A DNA stretch of 32,228 bases from Planctomycetota bacterium. Lineage in GTDB: Bacteria; Planctomycetota; Planctomycetia; Gemmatales; Gemmataceae. Below are positions 9,699 to 24,863 of the stretch, in pieces. A program made the translations under genes and the position numbers. Within the stretch, counting starts at the first letter, position 1; the number at the start of each line of letters is the position of its first letter. The notes below the pieces were generated by a model. It was given only the letters and a program-made list of their open reading frames with translations, was not told the DNA's origin and ran no database searches. The stretch is taken from the NCBI GenBank assembly GCA_021325115.1, contig JAJPHU010000053.1:1-32228 (forward strand), read 5' to 3'.

Positions 9699-10577
9699 TC
9701 ATTTCACTGGCCGTTGTCTCCACGGCATCGGCATGGTCGGTGGGTGGACATGGCGGTCTTGGCGCGGGTCCTTGGGACGGTCCTTGAACCAGGTTAGGAA
9801 GCGCACCAGTTGCTTGACTGCTTCCTCATAGACTTGTTTGCCCTTCTCGGCCGTGGCCAACTCCGCTTCGCCAAGTACGCCGCTATCCGAATAACTGCTT
9901 GTCCATGATACGATCGTCGCGGGGCCGGCCGCGAATAAGTCCACCCAGTTGAATGGGCTGTTCTCTTCGTTGAAACGGATGACGCCGTTCCTGATCTGGT
10001 CCTTGCGCACGTTATCGCCGTCGAGGTAGAGATATAGGGACGTTTCCAGTTCACAGGCATGAGCGCAGCCGCCAGGAAATTTGCTCTGCCGCCAGCGCGG
10101 CAGAAATTCCTTGTCTACTGTCAGCAGGTTCCACCACGCTGCCAAGATGCACTCAGCGTCGGTCTCCAGGTTGGTGCGGCGAGCTACCAGGTCGAGATTG
10201 GGCATGTTGGAGCCGTGGCCGTTAAGCAGCAGGATTTTTTTGAAGCCGTGATAGGCTAGCGATTGAGTGATGTCGAGAACGTGGTGCATGAAATGCTCGA
10301 AATCGTTGTTGATGGTGCCGGGAAAGTCCATGACATGGCCGGTGTAGCCGTAGCAGACGGTCGGCAGCACCAAGCATTTCTCCGGCACGATCCGGCCGGC
10401 GCCGCGGGCGATCTCGGTCGGACAGATGATGTCTACATCGAGCGGCAGATGCGGTCCATGTTGCTCTACGGCGCCACAAGGCACCACGCAGACCTTGCCC
10501 ATCTCGATAGCGTCGTTGATTTCAGGCCAGGTCAGCTTTTCATAGCGATATTCGGTTCGGGCACGGCTGCTGGTCAT
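9699..10577 (-). CDS. Creatininase-family amidohydrolase
   Basis: 292 residues from ATG 10577, with AGGAG 7 bases upstream; a longer frame to 10649 runs through a palindrome and is rejected. Creatininase-family metal-dependent amide hydrolases bind two metals. The motif GAVEQHGPHLPLDVD is present (ligands E38, H40, D49), as is LNGHGSN (H121 in 119-124), and a later CAHACELETS segment supplies the usual glutamate. Family members include creatininase, the formamide hydrolase of archaeal flavin synthesis and MftE of mycofactocin processing. None of their gene neighbours is here, so the substrate is open. The C terminus (DRHVHPPTMPMPWRQRPVK) is a low-complexity tail. Confidence 0.88.
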   Translation of the reverse strand: MTSSRARTEYRYEKLTWPEINDAIEMGKVCVVPCGAVEQHGPHLPLDVDIICPTEIARGAGRIVPEKCLVLPTVCYGYTGHVMDFPGTINNDFEHFMHHVLDITQSLAYHGFKKILLLNGHGSNMPNLDLVARRTNLETDAECILAAWWNLLTVDKEFLPRWRQSKFPGGCAHACELETSLYLYLDGDNVRKDQIRNGVIRFNEENSPFNWVDLFAAGPATIVSWTSSYSDSGVLGEAELATAEKGKQVYEEAVKQLVRFLTWFKDRPKDPRQDRHVHPPTMPMPWRQRPVK

Positions 10578-10595
10578 GAGGGTTCTCCTGTTGCT

Positions 10596-10658
10596 ACTGG
10601 CGAGTGGGCGTGTCAACGCCCCGATGTTTTTGAACCGGGACGTTGACACGCCCCCAGT
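10596..10658 (-). repeat. Palindromic element in the 5' leader of the creatininase-family gene
   Basis: Outer arms 10606-10618 and 10641-10653 are perfect over 13 bp. The stem continues inward for about 7 more pairs, with two positions that pair only as G.U on the - strand, and outward as ACTGG/CCAGT after a 5-base bulge. It sits just upstream of the ribosome binding site of the - strand gene. It could be a leader structure or a dispersed palindromic repeat. Confidence 0.55.
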
Positions 10659-10948
10659 TGCCTGAATTGAACTGAACTACTTCGGTCTTGGCAAATCAAT
10701 TTTGGGGAAAAAGGAAAAATGGCGCGCAAGTCACAAGATCGGCCGCGTTCTTCTCAGGAACAGAGGTTGGCCCGAGACAGTACATGAGAGGAACCGGACT
10801 TCGCTCTATCGGCGTTTGAGCAAACGATCCCAACGTCACATAGGTGGAAAACCCGTCTCCTGTCTCGGACAGTGCGGATCGAGCACTCATGCGCCGATTT
10901 CCACCCGGCCCTCTTCTAAATTCGGCACCAACTCTTCCCCAAAAGAAG

Positions 10949-16328: not shown

Positions 16329-18179
16329 TCACTTCGGCAAATGCGGCACTAGCAGCGTCAAGGGAAATACATACGCTTGCAGCAGCGTCAGCAGCCCCAC
16401 CACGACAGCGAGCAAGATGCTGTGCCACAGAACCGCCTTGAAAATGTCTGCCTCCTTGCCAAGCTGGTTGGTTGCCGCTGTGGCTACCACGATGCTCTGG
16501 GCGTCGATCATCTTGCCCATGACGCCGCCGGTGCTGTTAGAGGTGCAGATAAGCACCTGCAACTGAGACAAATTCAGATGAGGGAACACGGTAGAGCTAT
16601 GGATCTGCGTGGCCGTGATTTTCTGCAAGCTGCCGAACAGGGCGTTACTGCCGGCGTCGGTGCCGGTCAAAAATACGCCCAGCCAACCCAAAAGCGGGGC
16701 GAAGAACGGATACAACACTCCGGCCCCGGCAAACGCATAGCCGAGTGTCGCATCCATGCCAGCGTAGCGCGTTACATAACTGAGTCCCAGCATGAAACAG
16801 ATCGTCGGGATAGGGATTTTCATATGTAGAAATGTGCGCTTGAACACCCAGCCGATCTGTCGTTGGTTCATGCGCAACAGCGCCATCGACAAGAGCGCGG
16901 CAGCGAGTACTGCCGAACCGGGTGCCGTCAACCAGGCGAAATTGAATAAGGCTGCCTCCGCTTTCACCGCCTTGTCGTTATCCTCCTGAAGACGCGCATC
17001 GCGGAACGCCTGCTTGTCCAACCAGGGGACCGGGATGATGTAATTGGTCTGGAGGGGGCCGATCCGCACTGGGCCAAGTGTTTGGCGTTCTCCTTCGCGC
17101 TGGCGTACCAATCCCGTCAGCAAGAGTAGAAGGGACATGAGCACGAAGGGGAACCAGGCCACCGTGATGTTCCAGGCCGTCAACGGCGGCTCCGTACCAA
17201 AACCTCCGGGACGGGGGGTGTCAGCCTTTTCTGATTCGCAACACTCGGAGGACTGACGCCCCTCGTTCCGGAGTGCCGCGGTATCCGTCGGCAGAATCTT
17301 CTTCTCGAAGTGCCATTCCTCGCGCGGTTTCCAGAACTTGAGAAAAACAGCGGTGACAATCAGCGAAAAGATGCCGCCGCCGATGTCGGTCATGGGATAA
17401 AGGACAAGGCCTGGCGCGTAAACGTGCATGGTGGCGAAACAGAACTGGAAGACGGCGAAGGAGCCGCCAGCCACGAGCAGGGCCGGCCATACTTCCCAGG
17501 TCTGTTTCCACGAGCACATGCATTTGACCATGTACAACGGAATGAAAAGCGATAAAAGCGGTAGCTGATGTCCGGCCATGATGCTGAGCGTTTCGGTAGG
17601 CAGGCCGGTCACGCCGGTGAGAGTGATGAGCGGTGTGCCCAGTCCACCATAGGCCACCGGCGAAGTATTAGCGATCAGGCACAACACGGCAGCCAGGAAC
17701 GGATCGAAGCCGAGGCCGACCAGGATGGCCCCGCAAATGGCCACCGGTGTGCCACCGCCGGCCGAGCCTTCCAGAAAGGCACCGAAGGCAAAGGCGATGA
17801 GGATGGCCTGAACGCGGGCATCGCCGGACAACCCGGCCACAGAGCGGCGCACGATATCGAATTTGCCTGTCTGCACCGTGATGTTATACAGCAGCATGGC
17901 GTTGAAGATGGTCCAGCCGACCGGCAACAAGCCAAACAGGGCGCCGTTGATGAAGGCCATGCCGGCCATTAAGGGCGGCATGCCGTAGACGGTCACGGCG
18001 ACGACCAAGGCGACGAGAGCAGCCATCGCCCCGGCCTTGGGCGCCAGCCAGCGCCGCGGCACCAGCAGCCAAAACAGCACCAACACCGGCAGGGCGGCGA
18101 AGGCGATAGAGAGCAAATTGGAAGCGGGGAGTTTGTCGGCCAGCGGATTGAGGCGCTGCTGATAGACGGCCCAAAGCAT
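16329..18179 (-). CDS. lldP: L-lactate permease (LctP/LldP family)
   Basis: 616 residues, longer than the about 550 of E. coli LldP. Lactate:proton symporter family, with about 12-14 hydrophobic segments. Typical parts include GAFLEGSAGGGTPVAICGAILVGLGFDP, LIANTSPVAYGGLGTPL, and near the end LTGTDAGSNALFGSLQ..., SNSTGGVMGKMIDAQSIVVA. Part of the extra length is a hydrophilic loop (about 285-335) that contains the translated palindromic element at 17204-17273 (residues about 303-326). AGGA lies about 10 bases upstream of the ATG. No lactate dehydrogenase gene is nearby. The gene is alone on its strand between two + genes. Confidence 0.93.
   Translation of the reverse strand: MLWAVYQQRLNPLADKLPASNLLSIAFAALPVLVLFWLLVPRRWLAPKAGAMAALVALVVAVTVYGMPPLMAGMAFINGALFGLLPVGWTIFNAMLLYNITVQTGKFDIVRRSVAGLSGDARVQAILIAFAFGAFLEGSAGGGTPVAICGAILVGLGFDPFLAAVLCLIANTSPVAYGGLGTPLITLTGVTGLPTETLSIMAGHQLPLLSLFIPLYMVKCMCSWKQTWEVWPALLVAGGSFAVFQFCFATMHVYAPGLVLYPMTDIGGGIFSLIVTAVFLKFWKPREEWHFEKKILPTDTAALRNEGRQSSECCESEKADTPRPGGFGTEPPLTAWNITVAWFPFVLMSLLLLLTGLVRQREGERQTLGPVRIGPLQTNYIIPVPWLDKQAFRDARLQEDNDKAVKAEAALFNFAWLTAPGSAVLAAALLSMALLRMNQRQIGWVFKRTFLHMKIPIPTICFMLGLSYVTRYAGMDATLGYAFAGAGVLYPFFAPLLGWLGVFLTGTDAGSNALFGSLQKITATQIHSSTVFPHLNLSQLQVLICTSNSTGGVMGKMIDAQSIVVATAATNQLGKEADIFKAVLWHSILLAVVVGLLTLLQAYVFPLTLLVPHLPK
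17204..17273 (+). repeat. Palindromic element inserted in frame inside lldP
   Basis: 21-base arms 17204-17224 and 17253-17273 match except at three positions. Each mismatch would be G.U/U.G in + strand RNA (antisense to lldP). The 28-base centre is unpaired. The reading frame of lldP stays open, adding the hydrophilic segment LRNEGRQSSECC...TPRPGG to a loop between membrane helices. Confidence 0.75.
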
Positions 18180-18666: not shown

Positions 18667-18668
18667 AC

Positions 18669-18748
<80 letters not shown>

Positions 18749-19510
18749 ATGACGCTGGCTTTCACCGTACCGCCGTCGATCTCTTCGTTTCTGAGTCGTC
18801 TTGATCCGCGTTGGAAGCTGGCGGCTCTGGTGTTGTTTGCTGCCGTCGTGGCTACGTTGCACATGCTCCGGACTGCCGCTGCAGCCTTGGCTGCGGCCCT
18901 GCTCCTGGCCCTGTTGGCGCGGCTACCGCCGCGATGGTTTCTGCAACGCTTGGGGGCGGCGGCCTTGTTTTTCCTGCTGTTTGCCTTACCTTTGCCCTGG
19001 CTCCTCGACAGCGATGGGCCGAATTGGATATGGGGACCAATCCACCTCTCGTGGCACGGCGTCGAGTCTGCCCTCCTCCTCATGGCCAAAGCGATCACTC
19101 TGGTCACGCTCTTTTTGACGGCGCAGGCAACAGCCCCCCTGGAAACCACGCTCAAGGCTGCCCATTCTTTGCGCATCCCCGATCTGCTCGTGCAACTGGG
19201 TTTGCTTACCTATCGCTATGTTTTCGTGTTTGCCGATGAGCTGCGCCGTTTACGGATCGCCTTGCGCGTGCGCGGCTACCGCAACCGTGTCCGCCGTCAC
19301 AGTTATCGCACTGCTGGCCACCTTGCCGGCACTCTTTTGGTGCGCGGCTATGAACGGGCCGAACGCGTCGGCTGGGCCATGCGTTGCCGCGGCTTTGACG
19401 GACAATTCCGATCGCTGACCGCCTTTGCCACTCGTCCTGTCGATGTTGTGGTCTTCCTCGGCATCGTAGCGAGCGCGGCGGCGCTCGCGGTGTGGGATTG
19501 GAAGTTCTGA
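18749..19510 (+). CDS. cbiQ: Energy-coupling factor transporter membrane subunit (CbiQ/EcfT)
   Basis: 253 residues. T-component of an ECF-type ABC importer (cobalt/nickel or vitamin uptake). N terminus ISSFLSRLDPRWKLAALVLFAAVVA is typical (DPRxKL). It has about five hydrophobic segments, and the two Ala-Arg-Gly-type coupling-helix motifs appear as LRVRGYRNR and AMRCRGFDG. Last membrane segment is VDVVVFLGIVASAAALAVW. The ATG directly follows the CGGTTTT/CCGAAAA palindrome and has no Shine-Dalgarno motif, so the start is less certain, though the protein begins at the expected place. Its stop lies in the arm of a second palindrome. The substrate-binding subunit (CbiM or an S component) is not in this window. 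Confidence 0.88.
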   Translation: MTLAFTVPPSISSFLSRLDPRWKLAALVLFAAVVATLHMLRTAAAALAAALLLALLARLPPRWFLQRLGAAALFFLLFALPLPWLLDSDGPNWIWGPIHLSWHGVESALLLMAKAITLVTLFLTAQATAPLETTLKAAHSLRIPDLLVQLGLLTYRYVFVFADELRRLRIALRVRGYRNRVRRHSYRTAGHLAGTLLVRGYERAERVGWAMRCRGFDGQFRSLTAFATRPVDVVVFLGIVASAAALAVWDWKF

Positions 19511-19555
19511 GTTCTGAGTAAAAAGATGTTGGAATTGTGACTCAGAACTCAGAAC
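19504..19555. repeat. Palindrome of tandem 7-nt repeats between cbiQ and cbiO
   Basis: Perfect 16-bp arms, GTTCTGAGTTCTGAGT (19504-19519) and ACTCAGAACTCAGAAC (19540-19555), with a 20-base loop. Each arm is two copies of GTTCTGA plus GT. The left arm holds the cbiQ stop codon, and the right arm ends directly at the GGAGG of cbiO. Confidence 0.9.
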
Positions 19556-19566
19556 GGAGGAGAGCC

Positions 19567-20316
<750 letters not shown>

Positions 20317-20396
20317 TGCGAGCCTCTCCACAAGTGGCCGAATAAGGCCGGTAAGAGGAAAGCGCGTTCTACCATGCGCGGCCCAGATTAACGCAA

Positions 20397-20471
20397 GCAT
20401 GGGCGAAGGGAGTTGTGTTAGCGCTCCGAGATTCTCTCTCGGAGCGCTAGCGCGACTCCGCTCGCCTATGC
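20397..20471 (+). repeat. Long palindromic element downstream of cbiO
   Basis: The inner 13 bp are perfect (20419-20431 with 20437-20449). The stem extends outward to GCAT/ATGC (20397-20400 / 20468-20471), with five-base TGTGT opposite GCGCG (alternating G.U in + RNA), one further G.U and two mismatches. It lies 80 bases after cbiO and 42 bases after the stop of the convergent hydrolase gene, so it may act as a terminator. It shares sequence with 24020-24083 (CTCGCCTATG in one arm, its complement in the other). Confidence 0.75.
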
Positions 20472-20512
20472 TCCACGCGCTCATGCGTCACATTGCGCTG
20501 TGTACAATATAT

Positions 20513-22642
20513 TCACTCCTCTCGCCGAATCTGCAAATACTCCTGCCCCAGCGCTTTCTGTAGCTGCATCGGCCAGTCCCATGCCTTTGCTTCGGCGTCG
20601 TCCTTGACGTAGAGGCGCACCTTGCGCGGAAAAGCGAGGGCGACGGCTTGCGGCATATCGAGGACGCGCAGCACATTGAGGAAAATCGGCCCCTGCCGGT
20701 GCGATGCCGGCGGATGCCACAAATCCAGACGCGCCACGTCCGGCTCGAACAGCGCCGCATAGAGTACGATGCCAGCCATATCGTTTTTGCCTTGCAGCCA
20801 TAGCGGCACGTCTTTGAGATCGGCGAGAGTGCGCAGACAGGCCAAGGCTCGGCGCACGTCCCAAACGCGCTGACCATCGAGTGTTTGGCCCAGGAGAGCG
20901 AAGCGGCGACGAATCTGATGGCCATTCGGTTTGCCATCAAACGGGCTGGTTTCCGACCAGCGCGTGGGACCAATGCCACGCGGCGCGACGAAGGCAAAGG
21001 CCCATTTGTTCGCTTGCAATATCTTCACGGTCTGAGCGAAGCGGGCTGTATCTTGCTTTGGCTCCTTCGTCAAGAACAGCGCTTCCTTAATGGCAGGGCC
21101 GAGATCGGTAATCCATTCCTGCCAACCGGCCTCGTCGAGTGCATGGAGAACAACCAGAGTCGGTTTATCAGCTTTTCCCGCCGTCATCAGCCATAAACGC
21201 AGATCCACCTGGTCCTCGCTGACGAAATCGTAGGCACGCAGCCGCAGATCCTCGACCTTGAAATCATCAGCGAGGCGCACATTCAACGGCGGCGCTTGGT
21301 CCGGCCAATTGCGGAACACGCGGCTACGCAGCTCGTCCATTAGTTCCGGAGCGCGGCCCTTCCACCATTCACGCACCACAACCGGTGATTGCGGCAATTC
21401 AATCTTCGCAGGTTTGAGGAATGATTCGTGAATCGTGGCATTGAGCGCATCGGCGGGCAGGTGATCGAATACCTTGAGTTGTTGCGGCGTTAACTTGGCA
21501 GGTTCGTCGTCATGGACTTCGCTGGTGTCGTTTTTCAGCCAGCGGTTCATCCAGCGAAAAGCCCCGATCCGTAATTCCGGCGTGTCCTTGTGTGGTCCTT
21601 TCGTCTCCAGAAGCTGAAAGCGATCGGCTGCACCGTACAGTTCGTAGATGCGCCGCACTTTGTTAGCGAGGCGGCGATAGCCGGCAACGGGGAAAATGTC
21701 ATCGGCATCGCTGTTGCCCAAAAGCAGTGGCCGCGGAGCACACAGGGCCATGACACGGCCAAAGTCCCAGCGATAAGTATTGACGAAATACATGCAATCG
21801 CAATGGCCGGAAATGACGCCGTCGCGCAGGCGCGGGGCCACACCTTCGATTACATGCGAATACAAATCAGCGATGCCGGCCACCGGCACGATGCACTGCG
21901 GCCGATCATCAGCGGCGGCCAACCACCACGACGTTGCTCCGCCGCCGGAGCGGCCGGTGACGCCGATACGTTTAGCATCCACTTCCTGGCGGGTTTCCAG
22001 ATAATCCAGGGCGCGCAGAGCGTTCCAGCATTCGATGCCAGCCGGCGTATAGCCGAGCGCCTGCCACCACCACATGCCGCGCGCGTAGGTGCCGTGATGC
22101 TCACCGCGAATCTCGCCGAGTTGCAGCGTATCGAGGACCAAACAGACGTAGCCATGCTCCGCGAACCATGCCGGGTGACGCTGATAGGAGACCTTACTGC
22201 CATAGGATACGCCATCGATCACGGTGTTGCTGTGGCCGCAGACATACAACACCGTCGGGGCCGGCAGCTTGGCCCGTTTGGGGATGTACAGGTTCGCCGT
22301 GACATACAGGCCAGGACTTGATTGAAAATGGATTTTTTCGACCGTAAATAAGTCTGTTTCGACTTTGCCGGCGATCGTGGCGTGCAGGTCGGTGCGCGGC
22401 GGCAGCGGCCACAGGCCGATCATGTCGAGAAACTGGCGGCGAAATTCCGGACGTTTCTTCTCCCAATCGGCGCGCGTCTGGATGTCGGCAAGATCAGCAT
22501 CAGCGATGCGCTTCACTTGCTGGCGAAAATAGCCGTCGCGCAAACGATCGCCACGTGCGGTGTCGGTGGACACATCTGCCGCCAAAAGGCGAAAAGTGAG
22601 GAGTGATAGGACGAAGGGGACCAAGAGAAAGCGATGCGACAT
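20513..22642 (-). CDS. Exported acetyl-xylan-esterase-like alpha/beta hydrolase, double domain
   Basis: 709 residues with a signal peptide (MSHRFLLVPFVLSLLTFRLLA). The first half (about 60-400) is an alpha/beta hydrolase of the acetyl xylan esterase/dienelactone hydrolase type: nucleophile S232 in GRSGGG, an acid in LLGNSDADDIFP and a histidine in ETKGPHKDTPEL. The second half (about 440-700) again has strands and segments like a hydrolase (KPTLVVLHALDEAG.., FAFVAPRGIGPTRW.., DVRRALACLRTL..) but GKNDMAG replaces the nucleophile elbow, so it seems degenerate. Likely deacetylates plant or algal polysaccharide or an ester in the periplasm. GGAG 9 bases upstream supports the start. No operon partner. 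Confidence 0.82.
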   Translation of the reverse strand: MSHRFLLVPFVLSLLTFRLLAADVSTDTARGDRLRDGYFRQQVKRIADADLADIQTRADWEKKRPEFRRQFLDMIGLWPLPPRTDLHATIAGKVETDLFTVEKIHFQSSPGLYVTANLYIPKRAKLPAPTVLYVCGHSNTVIDGVSYGSKVSYQRHPAWFAEHGYVCLVLDTLQLGEIRGEHHGTYARGMWWWQALGYTPAGIECWNALRALDYLETRQEVDAKRIGVTGRSGGGATSWWLAAADDRPQCIVPVAGIADLYSHVIEGVAPRLRDGVISGHCDCMYFVNTYRWDFGRVMALCAPRPLLLGNSDADDIFPVAGYRRLANKVRRIYELYGAADRFQLLETKGPHKDTPELRIGAFRWMNRWLKNDTSEVHDDEPAKLTPQQLKVFDHLPADALNATIHESFLKPAKIELPQSPVVVREWWKGRAPELMDELRSRVFRNWPDQAPPLNVRLADDFKVEDLRLRAYDFVSEDQVDLRLWLMTAGKADKPTLVVLHALDEAGWQEWITDLGPAIKEALFLTKEPKQDTARFAQTVKILQANKWAFAFVAPRGIGPTRWSETSPFDGKPNGHQIRRRFALLGQTLDGQRVWDVRRALACLRTLADLKDVPLWLQGKNDMAGIVLYAALFEPDVARLDLWHPPASHRQGPIFLNVLRVLDMPQAVALAFPRKVRLYVKDDAEAKAWDWPMQLQKALGQEYLQIRREE

Positions 22643-22839: not shown

Positions 22840-22887
22840 CCACCCTAATTGACAGACCCCGAATTTCAACCGGCGAGGACCTCTCCC

Positions 22888-24006
22888 ATGAATTCACACT
22901 ATGTCATCCGCGATACATCGCAAATCTTCAGTCCCGGCTTGCTTTTTTACAAAGACCTGATTCGCGCCAACATCGCCCGCGCTGTCGAGTTGGCTGGCGG
23001 GGCGGAAAAGCTGCGGCCGCACGTCAAAACGCACAAAACCCGGGAGATCGTCCGTCTGGAGATGGAAGCCGGCATCCGCAAGCACAAGTGCGCCACCGTC
23101 GCCGAGGCTGAGATGGTCGCTTCCTGCGGCGCTGCAGATGTACTCATTGCTTATCCCATTGTCGGACCCAACTGCGGACGGCTGACTCGGCTGATGCGGG
23201 CCTATCCGCACTGTCGTTTCGCCGTCCTTGCCGATCATCCGGCGGGAATCATGGCATTAGCGAAAGCAATGTCTACAGATGGCCAGCAGGTGGACGTGTT
23301 GCTGGATATCGACGTAGGCCAGCATCGTACCGGCGTGGCACCTGGGGCCGAAGCCATCGAACTGTACGAGATGATCCATCGTTCGCCGGGTCTGCGGTCC
23401 GGCGGACTGCACGTCTATGATGGGCATAATAAACAAGAGAACTTCGTCGAACGACAGACAGCGATACGAACACAACTAGAGCCGGTCTTCAACTTGCGGA
23501 CGGCGCTGGTTCAAAAAGGCTTGCCGGTCCCTCGTTTTGTCGTGGGTGGTACGCCGACTTTCCCCATTCATGCGCGCCACGACGTGCCGGGGCTGGAATG
23601 CTCGCCGGGAACGATGGTCTTGCACGATCACAGCTACGGTTCACGCTTCCCTGACGTGGCCGGCTTCACCCCCGCCGCCCTGCTCTTGACGCGTGTCATC
23701 AGCCGGCCAACGCCGGTGCGCATTACCCTCGATCTCGGCTACAAGGCCGTCTCCGCCGATCCGCCACTGGGCAATCGCTGCCTGCTACTCGATGTGCCAG
23801 ACTACCAGGTAGTCTTGCAGAACGAAGAACATCTCGTCATTGAATCACCCGTTGCCGAGCGCTATCGTCCCGGCGACGAGATCTTTGCCATCCCCACACA
23901 CGTTTGTCCAACGGTAGCGCTGCATCGTCAGGCGTATGTGATCGAGAACGGCCAGGTCACTGGAATGTGGGATATCGTGGCTCGGGACCGGGTATTGAAT
24001 GTGTAG
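22888..24006 (+). CDS. Fold-III PLP enzyme, D-threonine aldolase / D-serine dehydratase family
   Basis: 372 residues from ATG 22888 (GAGG 9 bases upstream); a TTG-start frame from 22849 is less likely. N-terminal alanine-racemase-type barrel with the PLP lysine K47 in RPHVKTHK. The C-terminal D-Ser-dehydratase domain has the metal pair H338-x-C340 in THVCPT. From the family literature as I recall it, an H-x-C pair is the zinc site of eukaryotic D-serine dehydratase, and H-x-D is the manganese site of D-threonine aldolase, so this enzyme may be closer to the former. It acts on D-amino acids such as D-serine or D-threonine in the cytoplasm. Monocistronic; a palindrome starts 13 bases after the stop. 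Confidence 0.87.
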   Translation: MNSHYVIRDTSQIFSPGLLFYKDLIRANIARAVELAGGAEKLRPHVKTHKTREIVRLEMEAGIRKHKCATVAEAEMVASCGAADVLIAYPIVGPNCGRLTRLMRAYPHCRFAVLADHPAGIMALAKAMSTDGQQVDVLLDIDVGQHRTGVAPGAEAIELYEMIHRSPGLRSGGLHVYDGHNKQENFVERQTAIRTQLEPVFNLRTALVQKGLPVPRFVVGGTPTFPIHARHDVPGLECSPGTMVLHDHSYGSRFPDVAGFTPAALLLTRVISRPTPVRITLDLGYKAVSADPPLGNRCLLLDVPDYQVVLQNEEHLVIESPVAERYRPGDEIFAIPTHVCPTVALHRQAYVIENGQVTGMWDIVARDRVLNV

Positions 24007-24019
24007 TGGCCAGACATAG

Positions 24020-24083
24020 GCGAGTGGGGTTGCGTCAGTGCCCCGAGTGGTCCCCCTGGGGGCGCTGAGGCAACCCCGCTCGC
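24020..24083 (+). repeat. Palindromic element after the D-amino-acid enzyme gene
   Basis: Arms about 24020-24045 and 24059-24083 pair as GCGAG-GGGGTTGC-TCAG-GCCCC with their complements. Two positions are U.G in + strand RNA and there is one G.G mismatch. The left arm is clearly similar to the left arm of the element at 20397-20471. It sits 13 bases after one stop and 9 bases before the end of the convergent gene, so it may serve as a shared terminator. Confidence 0.75.
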
Positions 24084-24092
24084 TTTCGAGAG

Positions 24093-24863
24093 CTACTTGG
24101 AGCTTGATAGGGAAATTCCTGCATAAGCATTCAGCTGAATCGCCAAGATGCCCGGCCATTCCCTACCAAGTGCCGTGATCGTGTCAATAGTTCCCGGATC
24201 GATGTAGTTGAAAGTGACCGGGCCGATAGGTGTAGTAATGGTGTCCTGCTCCCCTTGGGCCGTGTTGCCCGGAGACAAGGTTGTTGGGGTGCCAGATGGG
24301 TTCTGGAAGGCAGAAATCTCCTGTGCATATACTTGCTGTGGAGTGAGTTGGTTGAATGTGAGCATCCCAGCAAAGAGCACGTTGTCCCAGTTCTTGTAGA
24401 GCGGCGCTAAGAAAGTACTTCCCTCCCAGACGTCGCCGGAAGAGTCTGTCGTTCCTAGATACTGCACTATCATGCCCTGGCCGGCTAAAAACGCCAACAA
24501 GGGCACTTGGAAGGTGGCGGTCGCCTGCCCGCTACTATTCAGGGTGGCCGATTGCATCTGATCGTTCAGATTAAACAGGACCGTCCCGCTGGTAGGAGCG
24601 GTGGCTCCTGCAGGTATAGGTGTGATCTGTCCCGTCGAAGAGTCAAAGCCCTGGAAAGGCGTCACCGTGACCGTGACCTTCTCCGTCACGGTGAAACCCG
24701 GCGTGATCTGGACAGTGGCGTTCGTGTAGGTGTTTGTTGTGAAGCTGGGCACCACTCGGTCTTCCAGTTGCTCCAGCCGCAAGCGAGTGGAAGGACGTGG
24801 TTGAGGCGACTTTACCTGAGACCGTTTACGCAGCCAATGGGTCAGCGAGTGCAGAAACATCAT
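24093..24863 (-). CDS. Secreted protein with LEDR motif and Ig-like repeat
   Basis: 256 residues. Very strong ribosome binding site (GGGAGGAG, 6 bases before ATG). The N terminus has a basic stretch followed by RLRLEQLEDRVVPS (27-40), the planctomycete 'LExLEDRxxP' motif found at the start of many exported proteins, in place of a normal signal peptide. Residues about 50-145 look like a bacterial Ig-like domain (VTVTVTPF.., GTVLFNLNDQMQSATLNSSGQATATF, MIVQYLGT). The C-terminal 100 residues are not recognised. Low in lysine and cysteine and rich in T, S and Q, as expected for a secreted protein. Probably surface or extracellular; function unknown. Confidence 0.78.
   Translation of the reverse strand: MMFLHSLTHWLRKRSQVKSPQPRPSTRLRLEQLEDRVVPSFTTNTYTNATVQITPGFTVTEKVTVTVTPFQGFDSSTGQITPIPAGATAPTSGTVLFNLNDQMQSATLNSSGQATATFQVPLLAFLAGQGMIVQYLGTTDSSGDVWEGSTFLAPLYKNWDNVLFAGMLTFNQLTPQQVYAQEISAFQNPSGTPTTLSPGNTAQGEQDTITTPIGPVTFNYIDPGTIDTITALGREWPGILAIQLNAYAGISLSSSK

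Follow-up and report, generated by a model that had tools for sequence, protein, structure and literature searches.

The 70-base palindrome that lies at positions 17204-17273, within the L-lactate permease gene lldP, raises the question of whether a small element that spreads through a genome has been inserted into a coding sequence and is read there as protein. The window, that is, the whole stretch of DNA analysed (32,228 nucleotides), is contig C60 of a 5.6-Mb Gemmataceae MAG that is 93.7% complete, and the host gene lldP (16329-18179, - strand) encodes a 616-aa protein whose Pfam match (Lactate_perm, PF02652; 471 bits) spans the element, extending over residues 38-615 of the stop-to-stop frame. 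An earlier note on this DNA had described 21-base arms with three differences, all of G.U type on the + strand, and an insertion that keeps the frame and adds LldP residues 303-326. The sequence confirms both descriptions (arms 17204-17224 and 17253-17273; peptide LRNEGRQSSECCESEKADTPRPGG), and the element contains no stop in this frame. In gene orientation, arm 1 (17253-17273, - strand) has the outer foot CGGAAC and the core GGCGTCAG, and arm 2 (17204-17224, - strand) shows decayed bases just inside (AGAAAAGG vs. CTCGGGGGG in other copies). The + strand of the element folds at -48.4 kcal/mol (z -7.28) and the - strand, which has the sense of the mRNA, at -35.7 kcal/mol (z -4.74), with 0 of 200 shuffles equal in either case; no Rfam entry was found at 17204-17273 at E <= 1. 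The explanation that we favor with good confidence is that the lldP palindrome is a copy of a REPIN-like family, likely moved by a RAYT-like Y1 transposase, which was probably inserted into a predicted disordered loop and is open in frame.

Plain blastn of a 96-base element against its own genome gave no other good copy (best other E 0.467), and the resulting impression of a unique palindrome was overturned when weak matches and a covariance model disclosed a diverged family. The model (R1) was built from 12 copies including the lldP copy of the window, a type I member, and the 66.6 bits that R1 gives to this copy are thus the score of one of its own founding sequences. At E <= 10, R1 produced at least 118 two-strand matches in the genome of origin (150 of 2,527 candidates scored), which collapse to at least 73 distinct places, so that the palindrome is repeated in the genome, as the earlier note had proposed to check. 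Sixty-nine of these places were read, those left unread all being weak (C130:11091, C177:50137, C252:24541, and C379:13690), and rescanning 323 kb around the places added one new place (a third UvrA copy, 22.4 bits) and one already listed. The family palindromes share a plan consisting of an outer foot NGAGC, a core GYRTNAGC, an inner GAG...CTC, and often the loop GCGAATC, and fall into two clear subfamilies, type I (CCTGAGCGGGGGGCGTCAGCCCCCTGAG...) and type II (GGCGAGCGGGGTTGCGTTAGCGCCCCGAG...). Because an unrelated palindrome at 18668 likewise scores 23.2 bits with R1, a few of the weak R1 places may be false, and feet and cores were therefore checked by letter: the exact GAGC foot together with the core occurs at 57/69 places and in 0.46% of 20,000 random palindromes matched in composition, and exact GAGC stands at one or both ends at 63/69 places, the lldP copy failing this test because its foot is CGGAAC.

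With filters off, the window itself holds four members of the family, of which 17204-17273 and 20396-20472 are among the 69 places and the other two lie outside them. The second member (20396-20472, type II, 31.2 bits) is found between the convergent ORFs 19537-20316 (+) and 20513-22642 (-), and the third (24018-24085, type II, GGCGAGTGGGGTTGCGTCAGTGCCCCGAG..., 27.7 bits) between the convergent ORFs 22849-24006 (+) and 24093-24863 (-). A probable fourth member (10597-10660, GGCGAGTGGGCGTGTCAACGCCCCG..., 21.9 bits) at the 5' end of ORF 9699-10649 (-) rests on its foot and core as judged by eye, since its score is below that of the unrelated palindrome. The latter (18669-18748) is built of TTTTCGG/CCGAAAA steps with 35-base arms and ends just before ORF 18749-19510 (+); microRNA models of Rfam match both it (at 18668) and the member at 20396-20472, all under their gathering scores.

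The family extends beyond this genome. In a search of 59 genomes with stricter filters than those used for the genome of origin, at least 24, the latter included, had R1 matches at E <= 0.01, and two-strand matches at this threshold numbered at least 75 in the genome of origin, 68 in G001, 87 in G002, 63 in G003, 78 in G030, and 73 in G020. Of the 15 genomes that share no rank below the class, 14 had none among the matches listed and the remaining one had a single match. As in a REPIN, two inverted repeat units combine into one hairpin that is dispersed in the genome. Pairing is good in the long hairpin and also in the mini-hairpins, in which each arm folds on itself, and covariation favors the long hairpin (69/781 cells changed on both sides, shuffled mean 31.5) over the mini-hairpins (33/604 cells, shuffled mean 23.5), a comparison that leans to the long hairpin because R1 picked most rows by it. 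The core pair 19:55 of the long hairpin shows changes on both sides in 18 sequences.

Copies inside genes were counted where an ORF of at least 200 aa continues for at least 40 codons past the element on each side with a positive coding score in both flanks, the score having been trained on long ORFs from the same loci. By this test, 23 of the 69 read places, in 22 ORFs, were called genic and in frame and 46 were not, which supports the suggestion of the earlier note that a spreading small palindrome can code for protein segments. The hosts include LldP, LutC (LUD), an S41 peptidase, UvrA, a P-type ATPase, kinases, an S10 peptidase, PurL, CobN, a magnesium-chelatase-like AAA/VWA protein, an FAD oxidase, acetolactate synthase (ALS), a helicase, and repeat proteins; 20 of the 22 ORFs have a Pfam family above the cut-off, L215 has a weak one, and L180 has none. 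LldP, LutC, CobN, and the S10 protein each have a single Pfam domain match that crosses the element; in ALS, PurL, S41, and UvrA, the element has Pfam domains on either side. In ALS, for example, the spacing of the two aligned blocks between which the element lies is 45 residues, against 8 in the plant enzyme 3e9y; in PurL, it sits at the linker joining the halves; and a double UvrA of 2,365 aa (L182:1740-8834, G000:C23) holds two counted in-frame palindromes and a weaker third. Both lldP and a LUD-domain LutC-like gene (L201:2091-2804) serve lactate use and carry copies unseen in genus-mates, which is possibly a coincidence. The same genic test applied to places fetched from other genomes found 3 of 26 genic, two of them well preserved and in the frame that is dominant here and the third being the PurL of G001. 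A well-preserved palindrome in G003 (L132, G003:C160:1690-1757), in frame in a 1,006-aa ORF (SLSGGRQPPEKGDTQGADAPRSE), would be a young insertion.

At the lldP locus itself, an R1 search of 29 relative loci, some of them partial, found no match within lldP, and the absence of the palindrome from relatives, which the earlier note had put forward as a check, thus holds across this sample. In the 17 relatives (same family or order) aligned with the LldP of the window, these 18 of 30 loci having passed a motif filter, the loop is unrelated in sequence and ranges from very short to longer than here, and no exact empty site was found for lldP, as the loops of the relatives differ in sequence and length. 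In the structural model of LldP, residues 293-328 are the sole stretch with pLDDT below 50 and lie between two long helices, and the loop holding the element is thus predicted to be disordered; no PDB relative of LldP was found by sequence. The earlier note had also considered the protein longer than usual on account of the element, which is only partly right: the loop in relatives is hypervariable and often long, in some cases longer than in this protein, so that it is better described as a tolerant loop that the palindrome filled or replaced. The lldP loop of the closest relative, G002, straddles two contig ends (C287 and C228; L081 and L080) with a 23-base overlap; this break of the assembly within the loop may reflect strain variation there.

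Other genic sites were compared by searching the genus-mates G001-G003 with ten native segments of the genome of origin, joined as one query, and aligning the matches. The CobN segment had no match in G001-G003, and the element is absent from LutC and S41 in all three genus-mates and from ALS in G001 and G003, with a different linker in the ALS of G002. As judged by eye, both UvrA sites are occupied in G001-G003 by decayed copies that are still open and palindromic, and the S10 site holds a copy in G002, the sole mate found. In PurL, G001 and G003 have a single REP and a doublet, in frame, and G002 has a linker that does not resemble these. Similarly, the ChlD-like linker is of type I in the genome of origin and of type II in G002 (the sole mate found), and at the FAD-oxidase linker, which holds one doublet here, G003 has a longer array in frame, G002 has no copy, and the G001 sequence reads N. 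The G003 array (L353, G003:C227) consists of several REP units in tandem and looks like an intragenic expansion. No target duplications were obvious by eye in these alignments, which contain no exact empty sites. Presence and absence between species are hence observed, and it is from such sequence comparison that we infer movement of the family.

Genic copies are unevenly distributed over the reading frames. Among the type I copies, 15 of 19 use the CGT CAG frame and 3 and 1 use the other two, and the four type II copies all use the two other frames (3 and 1). In the 28 non-genic type I copies, with both strands read, the CGT CAG frame is open 37 times and the other two are open 32 and 10 times, and the bias (at least 15/19 vs. 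37/79 expected from open non-genic frames) has P = 0.0045. The element peptides have a mean KD of -1.16, compared with -0.17 for their whole proteins. A frame bias beyond openness and peptides more hydrophilic than their hosts are what would be seen if the element were kept as a useful linker cassette, with host selection acting on the peptide and mobility being secondary, and the same can be said of the two UvrA sites, open in all four genus members and by eye still palindromic, and of the ChlD-like, FAD-oxidase, and PurL linkers with their differing REP arrangements between species. However, in non-genic copies as well, the favored frame gives the most hydrophilic peptide (KD -1.0 vs. -0.38 and -0.1), so that purging of harmful insertions alone would suffice, and we consider retention as a cassette unlikely. 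Either the loss of bad insertions or selection acting on the peptide would account for the frame pattern as such. A broader and speculative proposal, which we rate as doubtful, is that the mobile palindrome is a portable linker gene: one REPIN frame would encode a peptide (LSGGRQPPE...GADAPRSE) that is hydrophilic and probably disordered, and Gemmataceae would re-supply the linkers of UvrA, PurL, the ChlD-like protein, and the FAD oxidase with fresh copies under selection on the peptide.

The favored reading of a transposase-moved family draws on the genes beside which its palindromes occur in relatives. A Pfam Y1_Tnp search gave two matches adjoining family palindromes, in G036 and G038, where copies of the family surround the transposase gene, whose C-terminal end extends into one of them. 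Two RAYT-like genes (L217:3780-4430 and L218:2944-3879) have C-termini coded by the flanking REP (GERGASAPCF and SPSGGRQPAV, respectively), the latter in the same frame as dominates in host genes. With the G036 protein as the query, relatives were found in 32/59 genomes, and an R1 match at E <= 0.1 lies within about 120 bases of the RAYT-like Y1 gene at 13/31 loci, which include those of G036 and G038 where the link was first noticed. Matches on both sides of the gene are present at seven loci (L218, L313, L314, L315, L316, L325, and L327), those of L316 and one of L218 being weak, and under the stricter E <= 0.01, 12/31 loci have a match, five of them on both sides. G003, of the same genus, has a match on one side of a gene that contains a stop codon, and the closest relative, G002, has no R1 match beside its RAYT-like gene match. 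As a control, 31 loci of Y1_Tnp genes found by PF01797 (genome of origin and G001 included) had no R1 match near the gene and one weak match about 800 bases off, and among the 29 lldP loci a single weak match (E 0.028) was found, outside the gene at a distance of about 80 bases. The genome of origin and G001 each have one such other Y1_Tnp gene (28.4 and 60.8 bits, respectively), with no R1 match nearby.

The linked protein scores 27.9 bits against REP_Tyr_transpos, under the cut-off, and 25.2 bits against PF01797, over the cut-off. HxH is present in 18/18 aligned relatives of the enzyme, Y----Q in 10/18, and Y---Q in 7/18, the one other being a fragment that ends before the motif. Inverted palindromes are visible by eye at 16/17 printed transposase loci, with stems that vary between genera and a foot that stays GCGAGC, CCGAGC, or close. 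No gene of the G036-type clade was found in the genome of origin, G001, or G030, all of which are rich in copies; in the genome of origin, the gene may have been lost or may belong to the 6% that the MAG lacks.

These three genomes, with many copies and no gene of the linked clade, would suit the view that the family spread otherwise, through template switching or an unrelated transposase, and that Y1 genes are merely frequent landing sites; the strong covariation of the long hairpin, including the 18 sequences at 19:55, could likewise come from copying of one arm to the other. On the other hand, palindromes near genes of the linked clade (13/31 loci) are set against 0/31 for other Y1_Tnp genes and 1/29 for lldP loci, and stems that differ by genus around a nearly constant foot, at 16/17 printed loci, are expected of an enzyme and an element that evolve together, which makes such a spread decidedly unlikely in our estimation. 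Highly improbable is the remaining alternative that the hairpin is an lldP mRNA structure under selection (attenuation or pausing), palindromic by chance and not mobile, for despite a fold that is strong in RNA terms, the mRNA-sense strand folds worse (-35.7 vs. -48.4), the family occurs in 22 other genic and 46 non-genic places, a dispersal that contradicts it, and 29 relative loci have no match within lldP.

Under the transposase-moved reading, the family would move as folded single-stranded DNA by means of the RAYT-like Y1 enzyme, which would mobilize the doublet by recognizing the NGAGC foot and the hairpin and insert it through a single-strand reaction like that of IS200/IS605. Insertions that break the frame would be purged, and those in linkers with an open, hydrophilic frame would persist and subsequently accumulate point mutations, as the lldP copy appears to have done. 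In translation, this copy would contribute about 24 hydrophilic residues, and it would have stayed because it is open in frame.

The family is known in kind. Mobilization of a REP doublet by a transposase has been proposed for REPINs (PMC3116915), and recognition of REPs has been treated elsewhere (PMC8266576). In keeping with the published accounts of REPIN/RAYT systems, two inverted short repeats make up one hairpin unit with tens of dispersed copies (PMC3116915, PMC6006769), two copies in the window lie between convergent genes, and copies flank a cognate HuH-Y1 transposase gene, the last in relatives only. REPIN/RAYT elements differ in having the foot GTAG/GTGG rather than NGAGC, and, unlike in those systems, the arms of about 27 bases pair end to end here, a third of the read copies lie in genes, and the genome of origin has no detected gene of the linked transposase clade. 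Class 3 of the Y1 proteins has been described chiefly from planctomycetes and acidobacteria, where it goes with many copies of structures that have a CnGA foot (PMC6006769), and the linked enzyme probably belongs to it, judging from a partial fit. Both share the phylum and many atypical structures. Y----Q is present in 10/18 proteins, and since Y----Q or Y---Q is found in 17/18 aligned proteins, class 3 is likely; a CNGA foot at one or both ends occurs in 45/69 copies of the genome of origin, GGCGA in 21/69, and either one in 64/69. In contrast to what is described for class 3, GGCGA stands in those 21/69 copies and at most printed transposase loci, and 7/18 proteins have Y---Q, which was assigned to class 1, and the passages on class 3 mention no copies within genes (PMC6006769). 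The NGAGC foot is less novel because of this fit.

Coding REPs also have precedents. REPs of GTAG and CGTC type, with intragenic ones coding for 20-30 residues, have been described, including coding REPs in Rickettsia, Opitutus, and others, and two O. terrae uvrA genes carry REP dimers, which resembles the double uvrA here with its two copies and weaker third (PMC3733652). According to the same paper, GTAG repeats occur in the PVC group, and R. baltica has many tyrosine transposase genes that are accompanied by repeats; its main text gives no coding case for either (PMC3733652). Neither the GTAG nor the CGTC tag, as described there, fits the present family, and CGTC REPs are without a transposase whereas this family is linked to one in relatives (PMC3733652). 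Identity with CGTC REPs was accordingly dropped, as GTCAG is mid-arm and not a terminal tag and Y1 genes are linked in relatives. The Rickettsia palindromic elements (RPE) are palindromes found in frame within many unrelated genes. The present family likewise has many in-frame insertions in unrelated genes (23/69 places in 22 ORFs) and, unlike RPE, has a linked Y1 gene in relatives, so that the comparison with Rickettsia drawn in the earlier note stands as a parallel and REPs of REPIN/RAYT type, rather than RPE, are the nearest kin; RPE-4 and RPE-6 have themselves been classed as CGTC REPs (PMC3733652). The earlier note had further stated that no such element was known for planctomycetes, and this holds for coding cases as far as the literature search reached (supplements, including the intragenic-REP table of PMC3733652, and subscription papers lay outside it), although GTAG REPs in the planctomycete group and coding REPs elsewhere are in print (PMC3733652).

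What appears to be new, as far as searched and judged from sequence, is the coding use of such palindromes in planctomycetes, the frame bias, and the reuse of linkers. Protein-coding mobile palindromes would thus be present in planctomycetes with a third of the read copies genic, which is enough to permit statistics on frame bias, hydropathy, age, and reuse of sites across orthologues, and their tie to a Y1 lineage that partly fits the little-studied class 3 makes insertion testable in vitro. For annotation, LldP, UvrA, PurL, CobN, and ALS of this bacterium carry residues that seem to be derived from a transposon. If the proposal of a portable linker gene were true, a transposon would be a standing source of new protein segments.
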